A DNA stretch of 64,000 nucleotides. Origin: Mucilaginibacter ginkgonis (lineage in GTDB: Bacteria; Bacteroidota; Bacteroidia; Sphingobacteriales; Sphingobacteriaceae). Positions 17,188-23,265 of the stretch are shown in pieces. A program made the translations under genes and the position numbers. The stretch is taken from positions 1,302,001 through 1,366,000 of the forward strand of contig NZ_CP066775.1 of assembly GCF_009754905.2 (NCBI RefSeq), in the 5' to 3' direction. Under the pieces are notes generated by a model that saw only the letters and a program-made list of their open reading frames with translations, had not been told where the DNA came from and did no database searches. The first letter of the stretch is position 1. The number at the start of each line of letters is the position of its first letter.

Positions 17188-17871
17188 TTAAAGTTTTGAA
17201 AAGTTTTTTAACAGCATTTCACCGTACTCGCCCGATTTTTCGGGGTGAAATTGAACGCCATAAAAATTGTTATACCAAATTGATGCCGAAAATTTATCGA
17301 TGTAATTTGTTGATGCTAAAGTATATGCATCTGTATGTTCTATAAAATATGAATGCACGTAATAAAAATGTGTACCGTTGGGTATGCCTGCAAACAGTGG
17401 ATTGTCTTGTTGCTGCGAAACGTTGTTCCATCCCGTGTGAGGTACTTTGTAACCTTCGGTGTCTTTAAATTTCAAAGTTTTAACAGGGATGATGTTTAAA
17501 AGATCGGCGTCACCTTCTTCTGAGTGGGCAGTAAGCAATTGCATGCCAACACATACACCCAAAGTTGGCTTGGTGAGCGATTTAATTTTAGGCACTAATC
17601 CTGTTTGTTGAAGCTTTGCCATGGCAGCACCTGCGTGACCTACACCAGGAATTATATAGCGATCAAACTGATCAAAATCTTCCTCGCGGTTAATCATGCC
17701 ATAGCTGATGCCCAGCCTGTCTAACGCAGAAGTAAGCGAGAAGATATTACCGGCGCCGTAATTGATAATACCTATGCCGCCAGAGGCGGAATCCTTATTA
17801 TGGTTTCTAATATTTTCCATATCCATCTTGTCATTGCGAGCCGCTTGCGGCGGGGCAATCTCATAGGACAA
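17188..17871 (-). CDS. hisH: Imidazole glycerol phosphate synthase glutaminase subunit HisH
   Basis: A class I glutamine amidotransferase feeding ammonia to HisF. The domain proper begins at GIGIINYGAGNIFSL; the oxyanion region is PGVGHAG, the nucleophile Cys is in GVCVGMQL and the His/Glu pair in QFHPEKSGE. The longest frame, from 17871, adds 15 residues (MSYEIAPPQAARNDK) that are encoded by an intergenic palindromic repeat at 17828-17908. The start is more likely ATG at 17826 or 17820, giving about 210-212 residues. Only the short forms match normal HisH length near 200. Confidence 0.93.
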   Translation of the reverse strand: MSYEIAPPQAARNDKMDMENIRNHNKDSASGGIGIINYGAGNIFSLTSALDRLGISYGMINREEDFDQFDRYIIPGVGHAGAAMAKLQQTGLVPKIKSLTKPTLGVCVGMQLLTAHSEEGDADLLNIIPVKTLKFKDTEGYKVPHTGWNNVSQQQDNPLFAGIPNGTHFYYVHSYFIEHTDAYTLASTNYIDKFSASIWYNNFYGVQFHPEKSGEYGEMLLKNFSKL

Positions 17872-17908
17872 TTTTATGCTGAGATTGCTTCGTGCCTCGC
17901 AATGACAA
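17828..17908. repeat. Dispersed palindromic repeat, GTCATTGCGAGG family, copy 1
   Basis: An 81-bp element in the hisB-hisH spacer with perfect 13-bp ends (TTGTCATTGCGAG / CTCGCAATGACAA) and an inner pair GGCAATCTCA / TGAGATTGCT. Its right two thirds are nearly identical to the copy at 22144-22223. It contains no gene and overlaps the doubtful N-terminal extension of hisH. It would fold into a long stem in the his mRNA. Confidence 0.9.
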
Positions 17909-17923
17909 ATTTGTTTAGACTTT

Positions 17924-19072
17924 CTAAAGTAAGCCCTTTGTACTCGGTACTACCATATTATTCGCGTCACGACGTACGGCCATTTTAATGGCTTTGGCGA
18001 ATGCTTTGAATATTGCCTCTATTTTATGGTGTTCGTTTTGTCCTTCGGCTTTGATATTAAGGTTGCACTTAGCCGCATCGCTAAACGACTTAAAGAAATG
18101 ATAAAACATTTCTGTCGGCACATCGCCCACTTTTTCGCGTTTAAAATCAGCGTCCCAAACCAGCCAGCTGCGACCGCCAAAATCTATCGCAACCTGCGCC
18201 AGGCAATCGTCCATTGGCAGGCAAAAACCATAACGCTCAATACCACGCTTATCTCCTAACGCAGTAGCGAATACTTCGCCTAAAGCAATTGCTGTATCTT
18301 CTATAGTGTGGTGCTCATCTATATGCAAGTCACCTTTGGCGTCAATTTCCAGATCAATACTGCCGTGACGTGCGATCTGATCCAGCATGTGATCAAAGAA
18401 ATGCAGCCCGGTTTTTGCCTTTGCCTCGCCGGTGCCATCGAAATTTATCTTGATATAGATGTCAGTTTCTTTAGTGGTGCGACGGCGTTCGGCTACCCTT
18501 TCACCCAGCTTAAGAAATTCGTATATCTTTTGCCAGTCGGTAGTTTCCAGGGCTACAGTTTGCTTAATGGCCGCATTTTCTTCAGCAGAAAATTCGGCAT
18601 TGCCTAGGCCACTATTGTTATTTAGCCAAATGGCTTTACAGGCTAAATTTTTTGCCAGCAACACATCGTTTTTACGGTCGCCAATAACAAAAGAATTGGC
18701 CAGGTCATATTTTGCATCGTCAAAATACTCGGTCAACATTCCCGTGCCCGGCTTGCGTGTAGGGGCGTTATCTTTTGGGAAAGTGCGGTCTATATGAACG
18801 GCGGAAAATACAGCGCCTTCATTTGCAAACGTTTTGATGACCAGGTTTTGCACCGGCCAAAAGTTTTCATCCGGGTGGCTTATGGTTCCCAAACCGTCCT
18901 GGTTGCTTACCATCACCATTTCGAAATCCAGTTCCTGAGCGATGCGTGGCAAGTATTGCAGGGCTTTATTGTAAAACTCCAGCTTGTGAAAAGAATCGAT
19001 CTGCTGGTCTGCGCTTTCTTTTATCAGCGTACCGTCCCGGTCAATAAATAATATTTTCTTTAAGCCGCTCAT
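17924..19072 (-). CDS. hisB: Bifunctional histidinol-phosphatase / imidazoleglycerol-phosphate dehydratase
   Basis: A 382-residue fusion for two histidine steps. Residues 1-165 are a HAD phosphatase with the nucleophile motif [10 protein letters not shown], the Lys/Asp region [13 protein letters not shown] and [10 protein letters not shown]. Residues from about 190 are the dehydratase, with the manganese-binding His clusters [15 protein letters not shown] and [15 protein letters not shown], and the second repeat [11 protein letters not shown] and [15 protein letters not shown]. Both halves look intact. It overlaps hisC by four bases (ATGA), so the two are coupled. Confidence 0.96.
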
Positions 19073-20115
19073 CTATACTGCTGTAAAGTTTCTAATAATT
19101 TTTTGTTTTCATCGGGCGTACCTATTGTTATTCGCAGCGAACCTTCACAAAGCTCCACACTAGTACGGTTACGAACAATGATACCATGCTCCACTAAAAA
19201 CCGGTAAATGCCGTTAGGGTCTGTAGTTTTAACCAAGATAAAATTGGCATCAGACGGGTAGATGTCCACTACAAATTCGAGGTTTTTCAGTTGAAGAACA
19301 AGATTATCCCGTTGCGCTAAAGTTTCTTTGATCCAAAGGTTTACGAGATCAGTATTCTGTAAGGCCTGCAATGCCAGCTGCTGCGAAGCTTCATTGATGT
19401 TGTAGGGCGGTTTAACCTTATTCATCACTTCGACGATCTCTTGACTAGCAAATGCCATACCTACACGCAAGGCGGCCAGGCCCCATGCTTTTGATAATGT
19501 TTGCAATACTACCAGATTGGCGTATTCTGTCAGTTCCTGAATAAAGGTCTTCTGCCGACTGAAATTGATATATGCCTCATCGACGACCACAATGCCATTA
19601 AAGTTTGCGAGGAGGGTTTCGATATCATCGCGATTTATGGAATTACCTGTAGGATTATTTGGCGAGCAAATGAAAATCAGTTTGGTATGTTCATCAATAA
19701 CCTCGGCTATACCTTCCAGGTTAAGCTGGTATTCTTCAGTAAGGTGCACTTTCTTGGTGGCAACGTCATTAATATTTGCCGACACTTCATACATTCCGTA
19801 AGTCGGTGGTACCAGTATCACGTTATCAATGCCGGGATTACAAAACGCACGAAAAAGAATGTCGATGGCCTCATCGCTGCCGTTTCCTAAAAAGATGTTT
19901 CGTGCAGGAACACCTTTGATCTCGCTTAAACGCAGCTTTACTTTATGCTGCAGCGGATCGGGGTAGCGGTTATATTGCTGCTCTAACGGCGAACCGTAGG
20001 CATTTTCGTTAGCATCCAGAAAAACGCTGGCCTCGCCTTTGAACTCGTCGCGTGCGGATGAGTAAGGCACCAGGTTTTTTATGTTTGGGCGAAGAATTTT
20101 ATTTATGTCGAACAT
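19069..20115 (-). CDS. hisC: Histidinol-phosphate aminotransferase HisC
   Basis: A 348-residue PLP enzyme of fold type I. The substrate-side opening [13 protein letters not shown], the [13 protein letters not shown] phosphate-side loop, the SPNNPTGN motif, VVDEAYINF and the PLP lysine in [13 protein letters not shown] are all present. It transfers an amino group from glutamate to imidazole acetol phosphate. Its end overlaps hisB by four bases; a 32-base gap separates it from the lipoprotein gene upstream. Confidence 0.96.
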
Positions 20116-20147: not shown

Positions 20148-20843
20148 TTAATTGTATGGCTTAAAATCGACGGAGAACTTTTTAATTTTGTCGTCGCCAC
20201 CGTAATAATATATAGTGTCGTTTTTTAGATAGGGATCGAGAAAATAACCGCTATCATCAGTTCCCATATCATCATCATACAAATAAATACTTTTGGTTTG
20301 CCTGGTTGCAAGATCCAGCTTTGATGCAAAAATTTTTTCCTTGCCAATAGAATCACTTTTAGTATGTTGCCAGTAGTAAATATTGCCGTTAATAACGCTT
20401 GGGGATGAAAAATAATTGTCGAAATTTGGAGCAATATCCTTTAATCTTTTTTTGATATTTTTATCTGTAATGACATAATCGGACAGATTTAAAAACAAAA
20501 AATTTTTCCGCTTATCTGACGCCTCAAAATCATACTTGGACATCGTTAACAATTCATAAAAGAAAATGCCCGGTGCTACTCTTTCTATGCCATACCCCAA
20601 AGATATCGTGTCTACTATGTTTTGACGATTTCTTACGATCGCGTACGTTCCGCCCATCGGCCCATTTTCAAATTCTCCTGTATCAATAACTAAATAACCT
20701 TCAGCCAAATAATATGGCTTGAAGGTCTTTAATTTGCCCCGTTGTGGTTTTATGTTTCTCGGAACCTTAGATAAATTTTTGGATGGTTGCCTGTTACAGG
20801 ATAAAATAATCAAACATGAAAATATAACCACGATGCTTTTCAT
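20148..20843 (-). CDS. Hypothetical lipoprotein inserted in the his operon
   Basis: A 231-residue protein with a lipoprotein signal (VVIFSCLIILSCNRQ, predicted lipidated Cys in the LSC box), so it should sit in a membrane facing the periplasm. The rest is beta-rich with repeated YxFL and YYW/YYGGDD segments; I recognise no family. Base composition is more A+T-rich than its his neighbours (many AAA, ATT, AAT codons), which suggests a later arrival. It lies between hisD (one base) and hisC (32 bases) and must be co-transcribed with them. No role in histidine synthesis is implied by sequence. Confidence 0.75.
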   Translation of the reverse strand: MKSIVVIFSCLIILSCNRQPSKNLSKVPRNIKPQRGKLKTFKPYYLAEGYLVIDTGEFENGPMGGTYAIVRNRQNIVDTISLGYGIERVAPGIFFYELLTMSKYDFEASDKRKNFLFLNLSDYVITDKNIKKRLKDIAPNFDNYFSSPSVINGNIYYWQHTKSDSIGKEKIFASKLDLATRQTKSIYLYDDDMGTDDSGYFLDPYLKNDTIYYYGGDDKIKKFSVDFKPYN

Positions 20844-20844
20844 A

Positions 20845-22140
20845 TTAACTGTTTAACCTCACACTCACCGCATTCTTATGCGCATCTAGTCCCTCCAGTT
20901 CCGCAAGCAGTTCAACCGCCGGACCAATGTTAATAATGCCTTCTTTATTGATATATTGAAAGGTGATCTTCTTTAAAAACGAGTCGACCGATACACCCGA
21001 GTAGGCTTTTGCATAAGCACTGGTTGGCAAGGTATGGTTGGTGCCCGATGCATAGTCACCAACACTTTCGGGCGACAGGTTACCTAAAAACACCGAGCCT
21101 GCGTTTATGATCTTATCAGTTATTTGCTGCCAGTTTTCAGTCGCCAGTATCAAATGCTCCGGCGCGTATAGATTGCTGAAGTCTATAGCCTGGCTCAAAT
21201 CATCGACCTGGATAGCATACGAATTAGCGATAGCCTTTGCGGCTATCTCAGCACGCGGAAGCGTGCTAATCTGCTTTTCTACTTCGGCAATTGCATTATC
21301 AATAATTTGCTGAGAAGTTGCCACCAAAACGGCTTGACTGTCGGGTCCGTGCTCACATTGTGCAAGCAGGTCTGCAGCGATAAAAATCGGGTTTGAGGTT
21401 TCATCGGCGATTACTAAAACTTCGGATGGCCCTGCCGGCATGTCAATGGCCGCAAGCGTGGTTGACTGGATGATGGTCTTGGCCTTTGTAACAAACTGGT
21501 TTCCGGGGCCAAATATCTTATCAACTTTCGAGATACTTTCAGTTCCGTAAGCCATAGCAGCGACAGCCTGGGCGCCGCCAACTAAATAAATCTTGTCGAT
21601 CCCTAAAAGTGTAGAAACAAAAGCAATGAAGGCGTTTATCTTACCATCCTTTTGCGGCGGCGAGCAAACCACAATTTCACGGCAACCCGCAATACGCGCC
21701 GGAATGCCGAGCATCAGCAGGGTAGAAGGCAGCACCGCCGAGCCACCCGGCACGTACAAACCAACCTTTTCGATTGGACGGTTTTCGCGCCAGCAAATAA
21801 CGCCGGGCATGGTCACAACCTTCTCTTCAGCCTTTAATTGGGTTTGGTGAAATTTGTAAATATTATCGTAAGCAAGCTTTAGTGCGTCTTTTTGTTCTGT
21901 GGAAACCGTCGAAGCCAGTTCAGCTATCTCGCTACCATCCAGGTACAGTTTATCAAGATCCACCTTATCAAATTGCGCGGCGTAGCTATACAAAGCAGCA
22001 TCACCGTTGTCGCGTACGTTTGCAATGATATCTTCAACAACCTGGCGGATCTCGTTAGCCGGATCAACATTACGTTGAACCAATGTTGTGATATCTGTTT
22101 TGCTTAAGTCGCTGTATTTGTATGTTTTCATTATTAACAA
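20845..22140 (-). CDS. hisD: Histidinol dehydrogenase HisD
   Basis: A 431-residue zinc enzyme making histidine from histidinol with two NAD. Family markers are VPGGSAVLPSTLLMLGIPA, DKIFGPGNQFVTKAK, IDMPAGPSEVLVIAD, the zinc/catalytic region CEHGPDSQAV and YAPEHLILA with the catalytic Glu-His. The first codons (MLIMKTYKYSDL) offer a second ATG three codons in, which is more likely the start. The upstream spacer to hisG is filled by a palindromic repeat. Confidence 0.97.
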   Translation of the reverse strand: MLIMKTYKYSDLSKTDITTLVQRNVDPANEIRQVVEDIIANVRDNGDAALYSYAAQFDKVDLDKLYLDGSEIAELASTVSTEQKDALKLAYDNIYKFHQTQLKAEEKVVTMPGVICWRENRPIEKVGLYVPGGSAVLPSTLLMLGIPARIAGCREIVVCSPPQKDGKINAFIAFVSTLLGIDKIYLVGGAQAVAAMAYGTESISKVDKIFGPGNQFVTKAKTIIQSTTLAAIDMPAGPSEVLVIADETSNPIFIAADLLAQCEHGPDSQAVLVATSQQIIDNAIAEVEKQISTLPRAEIAAKAIANSYAIQVDDLSQAIDFSNLYAPEHLILATENWQQITDKIINAGSVFLGNLSPESVGDYASGTNHTLPTSAYAKAYSGVSVDSFLKKITFQYINKEGIINIGPAVELLAELEGLDAHKNAVSVRLNS

Positions 22141-22143
22141 TCA

Positions 22144-22223
22144 TGTCATTGCGAGGAGCGAAGCGACGCGGCAATCTCAAAGGACAATTTTATGCTGGGA
22201 TTGCTTCGTGCCTCGCAATGACA
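22144..22223. repeat. Dispersed palindromic repeat, GTCATTGCGAGG family, copy 2
   Basis: An 80-bp element occupying almost the whole hisG-hisD spacer, with 13-bp perfect ends (TGTCATTGCGAGG / CCTCGCAATGACA). The block from GGCAATCTCA to the right end differs from copy 1 at only a couple of positions, so the two copies are close relatives although 4.3 kb apart. The copy is flanked by 3-4 bases on either side. Confidence 0.9.
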
Positions 22224-22227
22224 AAAA

Positions 22228-23079
22228 TTACAATATTATCTTCTCTATCGGCATTACTACAATTCCCTGCGCACCGGCTTGTTTTAAACCGGTAATCCGT
22301 TCCCAAAAATCGCGTTCGGGGATAACGGTATGCACTGCTACCCAGTTTGCTTCTGCCAAGGGAACAACCGTCGGGCTTTTTACGCCCGGAAGCAGGTCTA
22401 AAACTTTATCAAGATTGTCGCGATTGATATTCAGCACTACATATTTAGTTTCCTTCGCCCTCAATACTGATTGTACGCGCTGTATCAATTCCTGAATCAG
22501 CAATTCATTTTCAGAACCTTTGCGGCCTATCAATACCGCTTCCGACGACATTACATCCGCAAATGGCTTTAATCCGTTGCTTTTAAGTGTCCCGCCAGTC
22601 GAAACCAAGTCGCAAATCGCATCGCTCAAACCTAATCCCGGTGATATTTCTACAGAGCCCGAAATGGTGCGTATATCAGCGCTAATGCTGTTATCCTTTA
22701 AAAATTTGTCAAGGATAACAGGATAAGTGGTAGCAATGGAGCGACCCTCCAGTTGCTTAATATCCTCAATATCGCTGTTATTGGTAATGGCTATCTTTAA
22801 TGAGCATTTCCCAAAACCCAGTTTTTGCAGGTAAGCAACCTCGACTTCGGTTTCCTGGATCACGTTTTCGCCTACGATGCCTAAATCGGCAATACCATCC
22901 TGCACATATTCAGGAATGTCGTCATCGCGAAGAAAGAGAATTTCTAAAGGGAAATTTGATACAGGTGATATCAGCGAACTTTTGTAATTCTCGAAGTTGA
23001 GCCCGCAATTTTTTAGCAGTTCAACAGATTTCTCGTTAAGCCGACCCGATTTTTGGATCGCTATTTTTAATGTTTTCAA
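22228..23079 (-). CDS. hisG: ATP phosphoribosyltransferase HisG (long form)
   Basis: A 283-residue enzyme for the first committed step, joining ATP and PRPP; it is the normal target of feedback by histidine. The N-terminus LKIAIQKSGRL, the DLGIVGENV segment, and the PRPP loop DLVSTGGTLKSNGL are present. The C-terminal 75 residues are the ACT-like regulatory domain of the long form (SPTVVPLAEANWVAVHTVI), so HisZ is not needed. The start codon is TTG at 23077-23079; no ATG fits better. It is preceded by a leader peptide rich in histidine. Confidence 0.96.
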   Translation of the reverse strand: MKTLKIAIQKSGRLNEKSVELLKNCGLNFENYKSSLISPVSNFPLEILFLRDDDIPEYVQDGIADLGIVGENVIQETEVEVAYLQKLGFGKCSLKIAITNNSDIEDIKQLEGRSIATTYPVILDKFLKDNSISADIRTISGSVEISPGLGLSDAICDLVSTGGTLKSNGLKPFADVMSSEAVLIGRKGSENELLIQELIQRVQSVLRAKETKYVVLNINRDNLDKVLDLLPGVKSPTVVPLAEANWVAVHTVIPERDFWERITGLKQAGAQGIVVMPIEKIIL

Positions 23080-23100
23080 GATTGGAAGATTATTAAGCTA

Positions 23101-23131
23101 TAAAATAAATAAAGGATACACGTTTCGCGTA
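23101..23131 (-). terminator. Possible attenuator hairpin between the histidine leader peptide and hisG
   Basis: On the minus strand TACGCG-AAA-CGTGTA (complement of 23117-23131, one G-U pair) forms a short hairpin followed by a U-rich stretch (CCUUUAUUUAUUUUA). The second arm GTGTAT (23116-23121) could instead pair with ATACAC inside the leader reading frame (23188-23193). This alternation is what an attenuator needs, but the U tract is interrupted and no folding was computed. Confidence 0.35.
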
Positions 23132-23143
23132 GAAACAACACAA

Positions 23144-23206
23144 TTAATTCAACACCACATGGTGGTGATGATGCAGATGCAATTGGTGTGTATATAAATC
23201 CTTCAT
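23144..23206 (-). CDS. hisL: Histidine operon leader peptide (20 aa, seven His)
   Basis: ATG at 23206-23204 opens a 20-codon frame ending in TAA (23144-23146). Histidine occupies residues 7, 10 and 12-16, so five His codons are consecutive. The reading frame lies directly downstream of a good promoter and 65 bases before hisG. The codons CAC CAC CAT GTG GTG at residues 14-18 can form a CACCAC / GTGGTG hairpin that a stalled ribosome would cover. This is the layout of transcription-attenuation leader peptides in other bacteria: low His-tRNA stalls the ribosome and lets the operon be read. It is too short for ordinary gene finding. No Shine-Dalgarno is present, as usual here. Confidence 0.82.
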   Translation of the reverse strand: MKDLYTHQLHLHHHHHVVLN

Positions 23207-23234
23207 TTTATAGCAAACTTGTGGTGAGCTGCCG

Positions 23235-23265
23235 CAAATATATACAGTAATTCGTTAAATCAAAA
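23235..23265 (-). promoter_or_regulatory. Promoter of the histidine operon
   Basis: On the minus strand TTTTG (23261-23265) and TATATTTG (23235-23242) match the Bacteroidetes -33 and -7 elements with an 18-base spacer. Transcription should begin near 23228, about 22 bases before the leader peptide ATG, leaving a leader of about 150 bases before hisG. Confidence 0.7.

Follow-up and report, generated by a model that had tools for sequence, protein, structure and literature searches.

A histidine leader peptide before hisG in Mucilaginibacter ginkgonis and other Sphingobacteriaceae that lacks an intrinsic terminator and probably acts on hisG translation

Amino-acid leader peptides serve as the standard textbook example of how transcription is attenuated. 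The region upstream of hisG in Mucilaginibacter ginkgonis raises the question of how a histidine leader could control its operon when no conserved intrinsic terminator follows it. A previous sequence-only reading had described this region as a histidine leader peptide with a possible classical attenuator. The leader lies on the minus strand of the window, the 64-kb stretch of M. ginkgonis DNA that was analysed, and precedes the genes in the order hisG, hisD, a 231-aa gene, hisC and hisB:

22228..23079, minus strand: hisG, ATP phosphoribosyltransferase, the regulated gene, TTG start (Pfam HisG and HisG_C)
20845..22140, minus strand: hisD, second gene of the operon (Pfam Histidinol_dh)
20148..20843, minus strand: 231-aa frame between hisD and hisC, with a lipoprotein-like start and without a Pfam match
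19069..20115, minus strand: hisC, downstream in the operon (Pfam Aminotran_1_2)
17924..19072, minus strand: hisB, bifunctional, downstream in the operon (Pfam IGPD and HAD-type phosphatase)

The closest relatives of HisG were found within Mucilaginibacter, at 90% identity. As a separate observation, a repeat of the form CGAAGCAATC..CAGCATAAAATTGTCC..GAGATTGC occurs in two copies on the minus strand, one in the gap between hisG and hisD (22171..22208) and one just past hisB (17855..17892); the chance expectation for this pair is 0.

The elements upstream of hisG to which we refer below are the following:

23261..23265, minus strand: −33 promoter element TTTTG, assigned from the sequence (Bacteroidetes TTTG/TANNTTTG type, spacing 18 nt)
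23235..23242, minus strand: −7 promoter box TATATTTG, assigned from the sequence
23188..23214, minus strand: 5′ arm A of a long-range helix, covering the end of the 5′UTR, the start codon and codons 1–6 (duplex GCTATAAAATGAAGGAT...ATACAC with GTGTATCCTTTATTTATTTTATAGC; family-wide coevolution)
23144..23206, minus strand: His leader frame MKDLYTHQLHLHHHHHVVLN, ATG to TAA, kept in 145/151 Sphingobacteriaceae loci
23153..23167, minus strand: hairpin C, CACCAC-CAT-GTGGTG, in the last His codons and the Val-Val codons, assigned from the sequence
23122..23136, minus strand: hairpin D, GTTTC-TACGC-GAAAC, just past the leader stop, assigned from the sequence and alignments
23097..23121, minus strand: 3′ arm A′ of the long-range helix, containing GTGTAT and ending 17 nt before the hisG start codon, assigned from the fold and coevolution

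The sequence-only reading had reported a 20-codon frame with seven His codons, a consensus promoter and a CACCAC/GTGGTG stem within the His codons, and all three were recovered. The frame runs from an ATG at 23206 to a TAA at 23144, five of its seven His codons are consecutive, and its stop lies 64 nt from the TTG start of hisG (23079). The promoter matches the Bacteroidetes type, with TTTTG and TATATTTG separated by 18 nt, and the stem is hairpin C. Among small open reading frames with HHHHH and at least six His, the his leader stood alone in the window, and none appeared in 20 shuffled windows. The predicted fold of the leader RNA was also more stable than that of shuffled sequences (−37.9 versus a mean of −26.1 kcal/mol; z −3.25).

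To examine conservation, hisG loci were taken from 80 named relatives and from genomes sampled across the family, class and phylum, and were oriented by HisG; any ATG frame that is rich in His codons and terminates before hisG was counted as a leader. Of the 151 Sphingobacteriaceae loci, 145 carried such a leader. Among the 87 loci from other Bacteroidota families the count was at least 62, and several of the remaining loci there have a leader with a GTG start or at a greater distance from hisG. Some loci represent one species present in two collections, and we therefore recalculated the statistics for non-redundant sets (40 and 53 members, <35% shared 6-mers). Typical leaders are MNGYTLHHLHLHHHHHVVIR and MPLVFTHHVHFHHRHCGDR in Sphingobacteriaceae, where the first His is usually codon 7, and MKQITHIHHHHFLTNG and MFINQLHHHHFHNCSQAMC in the other families. 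Thus the His run is kept in relatives, as the sequence-only reading had anticipated, and this conservation across family and phylum strongly supports the view that MKDLYTHQLHLHHHHHVVLN is a genuine His leader peptide.

The distance between the −7 box and the leader ATG is 28 nt in M. ginkgonis, and if transcription starts about 4 nt past the box, the leader 5′UTR would be approximately 25 nt. To our knowledge, the Bacteroidota are a phylum without Shine-Dalgarno sites, and the question posed earlier, how a ribosome loads on a leader of about 22 bases, is pertinent here; the inferred 5′UTR is longer in Sphingobacteriaceae than in other Bacteroidota. Indeed, a box within one mismatch of TANNTTTG was found 5′ of the leader in all 145 Sphingobacteriaceae members at a median of 32 nt before the ATG, versus 15 nt in the other Bacteroidota, and the extra 5′UTR bases constitute the 5′ arm of the long-range helix. 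In several other Bacteroidota (e.g. loci L108 and L102) the leader ATG lies only 4–9 nt past the −7 box, so that the leader mRNA may be nearly leaderless there.

The leaders of the two groups differ in what follows them. A canonical intrinsic terminator after the leader was detected in 52 of 62 loci from other Bacteroidota (46 of 53 non-redundant), an example being AAGGGCTTACCGGTACACGGTAAGCCCTT followed by TTTTTTTCA. This count is a lower bound, since at least five of the ten apparently terminator-less loci (L091, L093, L096, L097 and L099) do carry a terminator on inspection, either mismatched or with fewer Ts in its run. Furthermore, the terminator 5′ arm in these loci coevolves with the last leader codons and the stop (z about −5), a pairing that, as read from the sequences, corresponds to the antiterminator in classical attenuation. 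In Sphingobacteriaceae, by contrast, the same scan detected an intrinsic terminator between the leader and hisG in only 1 of 145 loci and a more lenient scan in 2 of 145, while none of the 145 his leaders had a terminator of −8 kcal/mol or better. The lenient match in the window, TACGCG-AAA-CGTGTA TCCTTTAT at 23131..23117, amounts to −3.9 kcal/mol, is not conserved and was not seen in relatives. Since no terminator 5′ arm is present at the M. ginkgonis his leader, antiterminator pairing with such an arm was not found there either.

Two further leaders of M. ginkgonis, both unannotated, one Phe/Tyr-rich and one Trp-containing, gave a comparison within the same genome:

G000:C1, upstream of 1817361: pheA leader (locus L257), assigned from sequence and terminator
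upstream of 3322340, minus strand: trpE leader (locus L258), assigned from sequence and terminator

In both cases a terminator of about −19 kcal/mol lies after the leader, which is MKYTGAYYFGFYFYFSSKSRD for pheA and MFNKSAITKYWWLHNSMIAGSDY for trpE. The end of the pheA leader is complementary to the terminator 5′ arm (−19.9 kcal/mol), and the trpE case is less striking. As both leaders keep their terminators, the his leader is the exception in M. ginkgonis. By these comparisons, the his leaders of Sphingobacteriaceae have essentially lost the terminator of the phylum.

In place of a terminator, the predicted fold of the M. ginkgonis leader pairs GCUAUAAAAUGAAGGAU, comprising the end of the 5′UTR, the start codon and the first codons, with AUCCUUUAUUUAUUUUAUAGC just before hisG. 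The ATACAC/GTGTAT stem, previously read as competing with leader pairing in a plausible switch, is real, but it makes up only the inner end of the helix, whose arms are 23214..23188 and 23121..23097; this helix is long-range and family-wide and not a local antiterminator/terminator switch. Across Sphingobacteriaceae, the 5′UTR and codons 1–8 pair with the approximately 55 nt preceding hisG, and relatives form the same pairing with other letters, such as AACGG:CCGTT, AATCAG.ACCAA:TTGGTCTGATT and ATTATTAAAAAGAC:GTCTTTTAATAAT. The A and A′ arms are unalignable across genera, and coevolution was therefore assessed with an alignment-free test, in which the 5′ region of a locus was combined either with the 3′ region of that locus (cognate) or with those of other species (permuted). 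The mean duplex energy of A:A′ was −17.4 kcal/mol for cognate and −11.4 kcal/mol for permuted pairs, a difference (z −11.6) that was reached in 0 of 20,000 permutations, whereas the other Bacteroidota gave only z −2.9.

When the pairing was mapped in small sequence windows, a single continuous antidiagonal appeared between −24..+26 relative to the leader ATG and about −12..−68 relative to hisG, with z values down to −9 and no pairing signal for the hisG start itself. The 5′UTR scored z −8.0 against the last 45 nt, and codons 1–8 scored z −5.5 against the stretch further up; in a strict selection of 12 highly divergent members, the corresponding values were −5.6 and −3.1. The control regions, namely the promoter, the hisG ORF and the His run, gave z values near zero or of the wrong sign. 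Column by column, 92% of cells were paired among 16 related members, versus 28–48% when the arms were slid, with few double changes, and covariation inside one closely related subgroup was consistent and modest. When 44 diverse members were aligned together, the consensus structure contained hairpin D alone; the helix was missed, since the A and A′ arms of different genera cannot be aligned. A candidate extension of A, in which the leader segment GTTTTCAC would pair with GTGAAAC in the 3′ arm of hairpin D, was 77% paired, without compensatory change.

The two local hairpins are conserved as well. In the 16-sequence alignment of relatives, 99% of the cells of hairpin C were paired, with homologous arms ATCGCC/GGCGAT, and relatives also show ATCACCG/CGGTGAT. 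The ends of the leader peptides (VVIR, CGDR, AAM and GGAL) look conserved because they encode the second arm of this hairpin. Hairpin D takes the form GTTTTG-TACGT-CAAAAC in other genera, and its UACGY loop is strongly conserved, more so than pairing requires. Its sequence GTTTCTACGYGAAAY occurs as a single copy in the genome, and we rejected hairpin D as a genome-wide motif on this ground and as a terminator because it has no U tract.

The helix ends about 13–17 nt short of the hisG start codon, and the codon itself is not closed. This start is weak in the family: only GTG or TTG is available in 136 of 145 Sphingobacteriaceae loci (GTG 73, TTG 63), and M. ginkgonis hisG has no in-frame ATG near its start, whereas 60 of 62 loci from other Bacteroidota offer an ATG. 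The nine Sphingobacteriaceae loci with an ATG start mostly have a longer spacer between A′ and hisG (median 28 nt) and retain the helix. They include L165, L171, L180, L183 and L194; L165 and L180 carry extra dyads in the longer spacer and are possibly a further variant.

According to our calculations, masking A lowers the cost of opening the segment −30..−11 before hisG by 3.8 kcal/mol (33 of 35 members) and that of −20..−1 by 2.4 kcal/mol (28 of 35 members), and changes that of −15..+15 little. In this calculation the helix closes −30..−11 and part of −20..−1, and not the start codon. In Flavobacterium johnsoniae, structure within −20..+20 and upstream adenines both tune translation (PMC6847099). 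Reinitiation at hisG by ribosomes arriving from the leader stop was also considered and rejected, as the two sites are 52–151 nt apart in nearly all loci, which we judged too far.

The conserved helix overlaps the leader frame, so that the position of a ribosome could alter the pairing. We propose, with a probability of roughly 0.55, that the his operon is regulated by a His leader peptide working without an intrinsic terminator and that its output on hisG is probably translational. With charged tRNA-His, ribosomes would clear the leader fast and leave A bare; A:A′ would then zip and close two sites, the start of the leader and the ribosome landing region that precedes the weak hisG start, and little HisG would be made. 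With uncharged tRNA-His, a ribosome would stall in His codons 7–16 and a second one would queue on the leader start codon, which would mask A, keep A′ single-stranded and allow ribosomes to load on hisG. Secondary effects on Rho termination or mRNA decay are possible. With one ribosome stalled at codon 7, the 5′UTR half of A stays free and the opening cost of −20..−1 changes by −0.4 kcal/mol; a single ribosome thus frees little and the model needs the second, queued one, a need that appears to be its weakest point.

The absence of a terminator bears directly on the classical attenuator that had been suggested for this locus, with local competing stems and an intrinsic terminator near 23101. 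The His codons, the promoter and competing stems are all present, and TACGCG-AAA-CGTGTA offers a weak match to a terminator. This match, however, is confined to M. ginkgonis, and 143–144 of the 145 family members lack a terminator while other families carry obvious ones, which leaves the classical scheme very improbable. With no conserved terminator and the stem being part of the long helix, the short transcripts ending near 23101 that the sequence-only reading had predicted are therefore doubtful. Conceivably, the A:A′ helix and a U-rich stretch of A′ could themselves stop RNA polymerase as an unconventional terminator, with the stalled ribosome preventing this. Many Mucilaginibacter members do have the AACGG:CCGTT core followed by a U-rich tract, and both the other Bacteroidota and the pheA and trpE leaders of M. 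ginkgonis use terminators. Such a terminator, however, would enclose a loop of about 100 nt, most other genera have no U tract after A′, and a terminator-like hairpin is lacking from the same 143–144 members; we consider this reading unlikely.

Less likely still is Rho-dependent attenuation, in which Rho would load on a C-rich, G-poor stretch after the leader ribosome departs and terminate transcription before or in hisG. A short C run does lie between hairpin D and A′ in many members, and terminator-less mycobacterial leader peptides have tentatively been explained in this manner (PMC1262725). Yet this stretch is short and is not C-rich throughout, it would stay uncovered when a ribosome stalls in the His codons, and neither the helix nor the weak start codons would be explained. 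The helix could also serve mRNA stability, as A starts within a few nucleotides of the inferred 5′ end: pairing would shield the his mRNA from decay and leader translation would open it. Starvation would then lower the his mRNA, unless opening stabilises it, and there would be no reason for a His-rich frame to accompany weak hisG starts; we give this explanation very little weight.

The best reading of the sequences is that sensing of charged tRNA-His by stalling at the His codons has been retained, and the data suggest a shift in control, from halting transcription to restricting translation. With a confidence slightly short of even, we further suggest that the ancestor of the Sphingobacteriaceae dropped the terminator, took a weak hisG start and evolved the helix between the leader start and the hisG region, so that stalling or queuing would now control hisG translation without Shine-Dalgarno pairing. 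The His-rich sensor is common to the phylum and the read-out part would be swapped in one family, with pheA and trpE classical in the same genome. This would constitute a natural experiment on how attenuators switch mechanism, and it would let translational control be tested in a lineage that has no Shine-Dalgarno sequences; if true, searches based on terminators would miss such regulators.

Several known systems resemble this leader in part. The enterobacterial his attenuator (HisL; RF00514 His_leader) likewise has a short leader with a His run between the promoter and hisG and senses via the position of the ribosome on the His codons, as the M. ginkgonis leader presumably does. Unlike HisL, the M. 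ginkgonis leader has no intrinsic terminator or 3:4 hairpin and instead has a helix that joins the leader start to the sequence preceding hisG. The leader region gave no match to RF00514 or any other Rfam family up to E 10 apart from chance miRNA and sRNA matches, and RF00514 matched weakly (33.7 and 36.7 of 49 bits, below the cut-off) at two terminator-bearing loci of non-Sphingobacteriaceae Bacteroidota. The Bacteroid-trp motif is a trp leader peptide and so concerns a different amino acid. Rfam lists it for Bacteroidetes (RF01692), and it has no match in the M. ginkgonis genome, including the trpE leader region, where trpE has its own leader and terminator.

Within the phylum, the transcriptome of Flavobacterium psychrophilum showed signs of leader-peptide attenuation at amino-acid operons, and its hisG has a structured 5′ element without an Rfam family that is conserved in other genera (PMC9723704). 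A his leader in the phylum is therefore not wholly new. The Flavobacteriaceae element concerns the same gene and phylum; the Sphingobacteriaceae form is not described there, and the other Bacteroidota sampled here have a terminator-bearing architecture, unlike the Sphingobacteriaceae. The comparative study of Lopatovskaya et al. 2010, as cited in PMC4833913, discusses attenuation via covering of the ribosome binding site. A family-wide change of read-out in Sphingobacteriaceae was not found in the literature searched, though Bacteroidetes may have been mentioned in this context before. In Actinobacteria, cys leaders contain cognate codons and have no obvious terminator, and the codons of the LEU element leader were proposed to pair with a Shine-Dalgarno box (PMC1262725). 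The LEU element, however, is a pseudoknot with an SD box, of unrelated sequence and phylum, whereas the Sphingobacteriaceae pair the leader start region and not the regulatory codons. The proposed mechanism resembles the translational attenuators of the erm type, in which a stalled leader ribosome frees the downstream initiation region. There, stalling is induced by drugs and acts on local hairpins, whereas here it would act on a long-range helix, presumably in response to amino-acid starvation.
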